Shown here: positions 16,997 through 18,148 of the stretch, piece after piece
How the letters are laid out: each line of letters starts with the position of its first letter
Numbering within the stretch: position 1 is the first letter of the stretch
Source of the DNA: Burkholderiales bacterium
Lineage (GTDB): Bacteria; Pseudomonadota; Gammaproteobacteria; Burkholderiales; Burkholderiaceae_C
Direction: 5' to 3'
Length of the DNA stretch: 64,000 bases
NCBI GenBank assembly: GCA_947464185.1
Contig: CANHVY010000022.1
Coordinates: 1-64,000 of the forward strand
Notes under the pieces: generated by a model
Seen by the model: only the letters and a program-made list of their open reading frames with translations
What the model was told of the DNA's origin: nothing
Databases searched by the model: none
Translations under genes and position numbers: made by a program

Positions 16997-17773
16997 TCAC
17001 CACCACGCTGGCTCGCGCTTGTTCAGGAAGGCCTGCACACCCTCCCGGCCTTCGTCGCTGGCGCGGATGTCGGCGATGCGACGCGCCGTCTCGGCGCGCA
17101 GGTCTTGGGTGATCTCACGGGCGGCGAAGTCCTGCACCAGGCGCTTGCAGGCCTTCACCGCCGCCGGGCCGTTGGCCACCAGCAGGGCCACGATCTCGTC
17201 GACCTTGGGGTCCAGCGCGTCGGGGGCCACCAGTTCATGGACGAAGCCCATGTCCCGTGCCTGCGCGGCGCTGAAGCGCTCGGCGGTGATGAAGTAGCGC
17301 CGCGCGGCCTGCTCGCCCATGGCGCGCATGACGTAGGGGCTGATGGTGGCCGGCAACAGGCCCAGCCGCGCTTCGCTCAGGCAGAAGTGCATGCCCTCGG
17401 CGGCCACCAGCACGTCACAGCACGCGGCCAGGCCCATGCCGCCGGCGTAGCAGTCGCCATGCAGCCGCCCCACCACCGGCAGCGGGCAGCTGTAGATGGC
17501 CCACAGCATCTCCGCCAGGCGGGTGGCATCGGCGCGGTTGTCCTCCCAGCCATAGCCGGCCATGGACTTCATCCAGTTCAAGTCCGCACCGGCGCAAAAG
17601 GCCTTGCCATGCCCGCCCAGCACGATGACCCTCACACCCGGGTCCTGCCCCAGGCGGGTGAAGGTCGCGGCCAGCTCAGTGATCACGCCGTCGTTGAAGG
17701 CATTACGGACCTCAGGCCGGTTGAGGAAGACCTTGGCGACACGGCCTTCGATGTGGATGTCCAGGGTGTTCAT
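16997..17773 (-). CDS. liuC: Methylglutaconyl-CoA hydratase-type enoyl-CoA hydratase
   Basis: Crotonase-fold enzyme of 258 residues, placed between the methylcrotonyl-CoA carboxylase genes, so hydration of 3-methylglutaconyl-CoA to HMG-CoA is the expected reaction. It has GGHGKAFCAGADLNWMKSM (oxyanion loop, residues 53-71) and GDCYAGGMGLAACCDVLVA near residue 106. The glutamate region FCLSEARLGLLPATISPYV holds a likely catalytic acid. The ATG at 17773 is chosen because the crotonase strand starts right after it. The codons just upstream are an 18-base tandem repeat. The preceding operon gene ends 375 bases upstream, an unusually long gap for an operon. Confidence 0.9.
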   Translation of the reverse strand: MNTLDIHIEGRVAKVFLNRPEVRNAFNDGVITELAATFTRLGQDPGVRVIVLGGHGKAFCAGADLNWMKSMAGYGWEDNRADATRLAEMLWAIYSCPLPVVGRLHGDCYAGGMGLAACCDVLVAAEGMHFCLSEARLGLLPATISPYVMRAMGEQAARRYFITAERFSAAQARDMGFVHELVAPDALDPKVDEIVALLVANGPAAVKACKRLVQDFAAREITQDLRAETARRIADIRASDEGREGVQAFLNKREPAWW

Positions 17774-17808
17774 GCTGATATGCCTGCGTTTGCTGATGTG
17801 CCTGCGTT
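17773..17808. repeat. Two tandem 18-bp units abutting the liuC start codon
   Basis: TGCTGATATGCCTGCGTT (17773-17790) is followed at once by TGCTGATGTGCCTGCGTT (17791-17808), differing in one base. On the coding strand the repeat occupies the place of the ribosome-binding site of liuC, and no standard Shine-Dalgarno is present there. Confidence 0.85.
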
Positions 17809-17830
17809 GCACGTGACGAGCGCGACATGC

Positions 17831-17900
17831 GGTCCCCTCCGCTCATGTCCTCCGGATCGGGCTTCGCCCGCTCCTCCCCCTTTACTTCGCTGCGGGGACC
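17831..17900 (-). repeat. Structured intergenic element, copy A
   Basis: 70-base element with outer arms GGTCCCC/GGGGACC, two conserved boxes and a small inner hairpin (CGGGC GAA GCCCG when read on the minus strand). The boxes read, on the minus strand, GCAGCGAAGTAAAGGGGGAG and CGGAGGACATGAGCGGAG. The same boxes recur in copy B at 17964-18069 on the other strand, but with different stems that also pair. It lies in the gap between two genes of the leucine operon. Confidence 0.8.
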
Positions 17901-17963
17901 ACCTGCCGCACTCGTCCTGCCAGCAGATCTCAGCGCCACCGTCCGGAAACCAGAGTGCTGGAA

Positions 17964-18069
17964 GGTCAGCGCGTGTTGGGGCTGTGCGCAGCGAAGTCAA
18001 GGGGGAGCCGGTTGCCAAAGGCGACCGGCGGAGGACATGAGCGGAGCACAGCCCCGACATGCGCTGACC
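17964..18069 (+). repeat. Structured intergenic element, copy B, with 24-bp arms
   Basis: Long stem-loop. The arms 17964-17987 and 18046-18069 pair over 24 positions with only two exceptions, both of which could be G-U pairs in RNA. Inside are the boxes GCAGCGAAGTCAAGGGGGAG and CGGAGGACATGAGCGGAG, shared with copy A, flanking a 9-bp inner hairpin (CCGGTTGCC AAA GGCGACCGG). The 330 bases between liuC and the acyl-CoA dehydrogenase gene contain these two elements and nothing else recognisable. Confidence 0.85.
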
Positions 18070-18148
18070 CCGCGAGGTCTCACCTGGCAAACAAACATCC
18101 AGCACAGACAGTCTCCCCGAAGCGTGAACCCGCGAGCAACCCCGCATC

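Follow-up and report, generated by a model that had tools for sequence, protein, structure and literature searches.

The question raised by this locus is whether a pair of hairpins between two genes on the same strand represents a structured RNA or a palindromic element that moves as DNA. The window, i.e., the whole stretch of 64,000 nucleotides analyzed here, covers positions 1 to 64,000 of contig CANHVY010000022.1 of a Burkholderiales bacterium (assembly GCA_947464185.1; hereafter G000). As originally predicted, the two elements lie on opposite strands, H1 at 17831-17900 (minus) and H2 at 17964-18069 (plus), within a 375-base gap (17774-18148, counted from ATG) between two same-strand genes, which encode a crotonase-family protein (hydratase) and an acyl-CoA dehydrogenase. 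In a scan of five neighboring genes, those for HMG-CoA lyase and the biotin carboxylase subunit passed the curated cut-off, and the leucine-degradation label for this operon is plausible. An 18-base direct repeat, TGCTGATRTGCCTGCGTT, is present in two copies at window positions 17773-17808, just before the hydratase gene. The parts of the two elements are listed in Table 1.

Table 1. Features of the inserted unit and its surroundings (window coordinates)
Feature	Position	Strand	Basis
Outer stem of H1, 3' arm (GGGGACC on the minus strand)	17831-17837	-	fold
Box B of H1, CGGAGGACATGAGCGGA	17838-17854	-	box match
Inner hairpin of H1	17855-17873	-	fold
Box A of H1, GCAGCGAAGTAAAGGGGGAG	17874-17893	-	box match
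Outer stem of H1, 5' arm (GGTCCCC on the minus strand)	17894-17900	-	fold
Spacer flanked by the 5' ends of H1 and H2; G000 and the orthologous G011 copy differ strongly here	17901-17963		
Outer stem of H2, 5' arm (24 bases)	17964-17987	+	fold
Box A of H2, GCAGCGAAGTCAAGGGGGAG	17988-18007	+	box match
Inner hairpin of H2	18008-18028	+	fold
Box B of H2, CGGAGGACATGAGCGGA	18029-18045	+	box match
Outer stem of H2, 3' arm	18046-18069	+	fold
Intergenic stretch with the inserted unit (unit ends approximate)	17774-18148		orthologous gap of 12-18 bases in G014, G008, and G009

Both elements contain exact copies of box A, GCAGCGAAGTNAAGGGGGAG, at 17874-17893 (-) and 17988-18007 (+), and of box B, GGAGGACATGAGCGGAG, at 17837-17853 (-) and 18030-18046 (+). 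Box A has two window matches at up to three mismatches, whereas shuffling predicts 0.02 and none of 100 shuffles had two; for box B, 0.35 window matches are expected, and 3 of 100 shuffles had at least two. The outer stems and inner hairpins differ between H1 and H2 with pairing kept, the outer stem being 7 bases long in H1 (GGTCCCC/GGGGACC) and a 24-base arm pair in H2. Both elements fold better than 200 of 200 dinucleotide shuffles, with z scores of -3.7 (H1) and -10.5 (H2) for RNA folding and -3.0 and -8.2, respectively, for DNA folding.

The window pair is not isolated in its genome. The box A core occurs in G000 at 13 exact places and at 2 others with two mismatches; only the exact matches were counted, because a reversed control of this core gives 10 matches at up to two mismatches. 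Box B was found at 13 places with at most two mismatches, one of which is degenerate, compared to 1 for its reversed control pattern. The arms of the 12 copies that were aligned also pair: 92% of the cells are paired, and 22 of the 25 stem pairs have changed on both sides. The covariation score of these copies is 0.769, compared to 0.214 in shuffles, none of 500 of which scored as high, and to a maximum of 0.145 in a control with slid partners, the only one of the controls to preserve relatedness, which the shuffles and permutations ignore. Thus, the stems vary freely while pairing is kept, as anticipated for selection on a folded single strand.

The identity of that strand follows from the nonstandard pairs. 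In 128 distinct hairpins from 120 named loci, picked solely by their box pattern, the outer stems contribute 14 positions each and 1,792 cells in total, of which 1,547 are Watson-Crick pairs, 174 are G·T, 10 are A·C, and 61 are other combinations; the outer stems of the model-aligned set include 278 G·T and 19 A·C. Selection on double-stranded DNA or on both strands would make G·T and A·C alike, so the strand that carries box A is the folded one. This excess fits RNA and single-stranded DNA alike.

The original prediction viewed the boxes as fixed and single stranded. They are instead themselves a covarying, partly noncanonical helix, as seen in alignment A3 (the best 150 of 169 model matches, located in 100 of 120 named loci; 148 distinct copies). 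In antiparallel orientation, the boxes can form, in the numbering of alignment A2, the appositions G25·A82, N26-N81, A27·G80, G28-C79, C29-G78, G30·A77, A31·G76, and A32-T75, followed by a bulged A74, the pairs G33-C73 and T34-A72, and a purine-rich part; how the G·A appositions are arranged is predicted from the order of the bases. Among the 148 copies of A3, C29-G78 is CG in 139 and TA in 9; A32-T75 is AT in 132, GC in 14, and CG and GG in one each; and G25·A82 is GA in 130, AC in 9, and other in 9. Box A opens with GNAG, the second base of which is variable and mostly paired with box B: at N26-N81, a standard pair is found in 108 copies and is missing from 40, with a permuted mean of 76 and 0 of 5,000 permutations as high. 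In a divergent subfamily of G012, AGCGAGGT occurs with GGACACGAGC, i.e., with G-C in place of A-T at A32-T75. The purines R40 and R69 are coupled: 144 of the 148 copies have AG or GA (AG in 124, GA in 20, AA in 4, and GG in none), with 110 expected by permutation and 0 of 5,000 permutations as high as 144. In an overlapping set of 180 cores, the count is 177 (AG in 148, GA in 29, and AA in 3). Both states occur within G000, and in H1 of the window locus R40/R69 is GA in G000 and AG in G011, so that both positions have been exchanged.

A covariance model built from the 12 copies of G000 (R1) yields 13 matches in that genome. The 13 exact box A cores form opposite-strand pairs, minus then plus, on contigs C22 (the window), C26, C41, and C53, and five of them are solitary. 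R1, for which no more than 70 candidates were scored in any one genome, was matched in 37 of 60 sampled genomes of the same genus, G000 included, and not in the other 23; eight of the 37 have 30 to 67 matches each. It was also matched in 12 of 300 genomes of the order, again including G000 (completeness of at least 90 and at most 14 candidates scored in each), with no match in the remaining 288, and in 4 of 369 genomes of the class (at most 11 candidates each), two of which, G371 and G631, belong to a taxonomic family outside the order. A pattern scan of named genomes recovered at least 120 stretches. The 80 matches listed come from genera of Burkholderiales, such as Hydrogenophaga, Rubrivivax, Rhodoferax, Aquabacterium, and Variovorax, and otherwise from metagenome-assembled genomes named Comamonadaceae, beta proteobacteria, or Pseudomonadota, one Sulfurisoma, and one “Candidatus Nitricoxidireducens.” Among plasmids, 14 records were matched, of which three from Variovorax look real and are unannotated at the matched places. 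A scan of phages gave seven weak matches, none of them convincing, and a scan of viral contigs matched one stretch. The search of this genome and its relatives thus uncovered many dispersed copies with no fixed neighbors.

De-duplication of 331 loci left 149 distinct sites with full flanks, 70 sites near locus ends being left out. Recognizable halves are present on both strands at 89 of the 149, in the order minus-plus at 87 and plus-minus at 2, and a single half is present at 60. The spacers between trimmed cores are 47 to 50 bases long in 47 of 77 cases (a count that was not de-duplicated). H1 and H2 together make up a single inserted, inverted unit as its two halves, and the family of such inverted doublets is real, strongly constrained, and insertable. 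The rare plus-minus arrangement is seen at L125:6327-6568, where the 3' ends face each other.

Outside the cores, the units vary. Copies in G026 share a common central hairpin, and many of them carry the same ∼20-base tail sequences on either side, which end near CGAACGNCCGCAAYGTGCCG; repetition extends over ∼330 to 340 bases in these units. Tails differ between subfamilies. In five aligned units of G018, one box hairpin is joined to a different long hairpin, and among the six sites common to G018 and G053 (four with both flanks matched and two with one), the number of box hairpins differs at three. The unit arms are exchangeable. A 447-bp sequence at L234 (G026 C124:5000-10500, positions 1594-2040) shares these tails and has a comparable central hairpin, yet boxes A and B are not recognizable in it, so the tails and center may travel with other arms. 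At one of the six sites shared by G018 and G053 (L365 versus L375), the unit is apparently reversed at the orthologous position of the two species; part of this unit is 94% identical, with flanks at 86 to 89%. A second small palindromic repeat, with the arms AACAGTCC and GGACTGTT, is nested within units at L024 (G000 C53), L313 (G011 C597), and L370 (G018 C23), in the first two between GGGGGA and CATGAGCG of box B and in L370 in the other arm. At L104:1050-1850, box A of one half is apparently split by an inverted-repeat element with CCCTAGATTCGGTAGTT-like ends.

At the two orthologous sites examined, the unit is present in some genomes and absent from others. In G000 and its relative G011 (98% protein identity), the unit lies between the dehydrogenase and hydratase genes, whereas the gap is only 12 to 18 bases (to an ATG) in G014, G008, and G009; the dehydrogenase gene of G004 is followed by other sequence. 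Similarly, a unit of G026 fills a 388- to 400-base gap at a site where G008, G014, and G009 have 9 to 14 bases between conserved flanks and where G054 and G038 have other sequence of ∼75 to 90 bases. Inspection by eye of the junctions at the latter site found no clear target-site duplication. At the window locus, the half in sense orientation has box B interrupted by an insert in G011. The antisense half, H2, differs between G000 and G011 at only 2 of 106 positions (box position N35 and one outer-stem base, opening a pair), unlike the strongly diverged spacer. That H2 is nearly unchanged beside such a spacer could speak for gene conversion or a use by the host instead of selfish movement.

These sites also bear on the notion that each half, once transcribed, is a structured RNA acting, for example, in 3'-UTR stability, processing, or regulation of a neighboring gene. 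The context was scored where both neighboring genes were called within 500 bases (108 of 149 sites), with calls from a simple codon-usage script in place of a standard gene finder. Units lie between tandem genes in 74 cases, convergent genes in 29, and divergent genes in 5, so that 103 of the 108 sites lie past the 3' end of one or more called genes, as a structured RNA might. In 636 gaps without a unit, the respective numbers are 460, 90, and 86, so that units avoid divergent gaps (5/108 versus 86/636; P = 0.007) and are enriched in convergent ones (29/108 versus 90/636; P = 0.002). The strand-specific wobble pairs fit RNA equally well, and the conservation of H2 agrees with such a function. 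However, of the 74 units between tandem genes, 30 have the better score in the sense half and 24 in the antisense half, with 20 ties (P = 0.50), and where only one half is recognized, it is the sense half in 16 and the antisense half in 11 (P = 0.44). The two are kept about equally between tandem genes, which disfavors a cis-acting RNA, as does the G011 copy, in which the sense half is split and the antisense one kept, the opposite of what a cis role predicts. Added to the patchy occupancy of sites and the lack of an Rfam match at the gathering score, this makes a structured RNA improbable, if still the strongest of the rivals. The proposed cis role in the operon therefore finds no support, given the short gap without the element in relatives and the even split of the halves, and the window unit most likely sits in this intergenic gap as a passenger.

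A slightly weaker candidate is a miniature inverted-repeat element (MITE) of a classical DDE transposon that recognizes double-stranded ends. The ∼20-base tails common to both ends of many G026 units are what such an element would carry, but the outer-stem excess of G·T over A·C (174 to 10) is not expected if a double strand is recognized, and the tails are not the same across subfamilies. A search of G026 with the tail pattern, the reversed control of which gives 31 matches at up to three mismatches, recognized no close pair of ends beyond the units and the box-less 447-bp relative, and no gene-bearing version that could be an autonomous copy. This origin is doubtful.

A mobile palindromic family, one of the two readings offered in the original prediction, is supported by the dispersed and patchy copies; the suggested tie to RAYTs is not supported by co-occurrence. 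Y1 transposase (RAYT) genes (PF01797, E value of ≤0.001) were detected in 17 of 37 carriers and 12 of 23 noncarriers, and reverse transcriptase genes (PF00078) in 17 of 37 and 8 of 23; neither is associated with the units. PF01797 is absent from G012, G018, G038, G042, G053, and G054 (27 to 67 unit matches; some assemblies are incomplete), and PF00078 is absent from G000, G009, G012, G018, G026, G042, and G053 (13 to 57 matches; several assemblies are incomplete). Both are missing from G012, G018, G042, and G053, with 27, 50, 55, and 30 unit matches, respectively, although incomplete assemblies weaken each single absence. With no association across the 60 same-genus genomes, both enzymes were rejected as partners. 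Genes located between two units at three loci, judged by eye from the translated open reading frames, are HipA-like, tautomerase-like, and large methylase-like. The absence of PF00078 from seven carriers and its lack of association also weigh, within the limits of these assemblies, against a SINE-like retroelement, whose RNA would be copied back by a reverse transcriptase and whose inverted doublet would ensure a sense half under any read-through; the conserved folded core, dispersed copies, and location downstream of genes fit this scheme, which is nonetheless unlikely. Least likely of all is a DNA site used and kept by the host (in the nucleoid, for gyrase, or as a terminator-like signal), which would suit the REP-like gene context and the conserved H2 but is at odds with the empty orthologous sites and with absence from 23 of 60 same-genus genomes and 288 of 300 genomes of the order (at most 14 candidates scored in each of the latter).

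The reading favored here, with a probability of about 0.55, is a nonautonomous mobile doublet that would be recognized as single-stranded DNA by a mobilizing enzyme. The observations on movement are of occupied versus empty orthologous sites, and no such enzyme turned up in the searches for PF01797, PF00078, and a gene-bearing copy. The unit is an inverted doublet of two opposite-strand hairpins with their 5' ends inward, usually ∼50 bases apart, so that each strand carries one hairpin in the recognizable sense. Each hairpin is an irregular helix, in which a variable outer stem and a variable inner hairpin enclose the conserved core of boxes A and B. The core has G·A and A·G appositions flanking Watson-Crick pairs, followed by the purine-rich part, in which one position in box A and one in box B have to be A/G or G/A. 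The fold is expected to form in single-stranded DNA, not in RNA, possibly during replication or excision, where an enzyme acting on single-stranded DNA might recognize the core and move the doublet, by analogy with the role proposed for TnpA-REP at REPs. In many hosts, the moving enzyme would not belong to the RAYT family. A more specific and tentative version treats the core as a previously undescribed motif, with covarying pairs between G·A appositions and a near-obligate A/G-G/A exchange in GGRGG/GGRGG, that may serve as the recognition body of a single-stranded mobile doublet whose moving enzyme is not a RAYT and not a reverse transcriptase.

Among bacterial doublets built in this way, REPINs, which are tied to RAYTs, are the best known. 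Like REPINs and BIMEs, the units described here are intergenic inverted doublets of hairpins with compensatory changes and mismatched stem positions. Two REP papers describe REPINs as inverted intergenic doublets of hairpins with compensatory changes, the doublet being the likely unit, and report that a bulge is required for recognition in E. coli and that the REP strand is acted on and its complement (iREP) is not (PMC3116915, PMC8266576). In the units here, the 174 G·T and 10 A·C mark the strand that is folded. In contrast, REPs are 20- to 50-nt palindromes after a conserved GTAG, whereas the halves here are ∼70 to 110 nt long (70 and 106 in the window), with GNAG and its variable base; here the inside is conserved and the stems are variable; and Y1 transposase genes (RAYT/TnpA-REP), to which REPINs are tied, show no association with these units.

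ERIC, Correia/NEMIS, and RUP are likewise small repeats with features of mobile elements. In those families, the terminal repeats are conserved, whereas here it is internal boxes between variable stems. The covariation resembles that of structured RNAs in Rfam, but no family could be assigned: the Rfam check, in line with the original failure to recognize the family, gave no hit at the gathering score in the window, and at an E value of ≤10 on 341 bases it returned only five matches (three microRNA families, sX5, and H19_2), all far below their gathering scores. A text search of the literature, covering few subscription journals, for the box sequences and the unit retrieved, among the papers listed and apart from the BRE repeat, nothing recognized as this family.

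An earlier sighting of the same core may be the Beta-proteobacterial repeat element, BRE (Hot et al. 2011), given a suggestive overlap of hosts and a comparison by description only. The section on BRE reports ∼90-bp, usually intergenic repeats of high G+C content and suspected mobility from Bordetella, Polaromonas, Delftia, Rhodoferax, Acidovorax, and Azoarcus, among others; clustered copies are tandem and form VNTRs, and that section does not describe an inverted doublet or fold (PMC3110155). Unlike those tandems, close unit neighbors are nearly always inverted among the matches listed, where same-strand neighbors are 195 bases (G631), 226 bases (G053 C21), and 504 bases (L104) apart. REP-like sequences of Bordetellae are also mentioned elsewhere (PMC3733652), and, according to a motif discovery study, Rhodoferax ferrireducens T118 has the most spaced motif pairs, 140 (PMC5217627), to which this family could contribute.

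A doublet family that has a much larger, structurally elaborate, strand-specific core and abounds in genomes lacking a recognized RAYT would suggest that small palindromes can also be moved by other means. The purine-coupled core provides a concrete motif to solve, and the covariance model, together with the empty orthologous sites, makes the question of movement testable.
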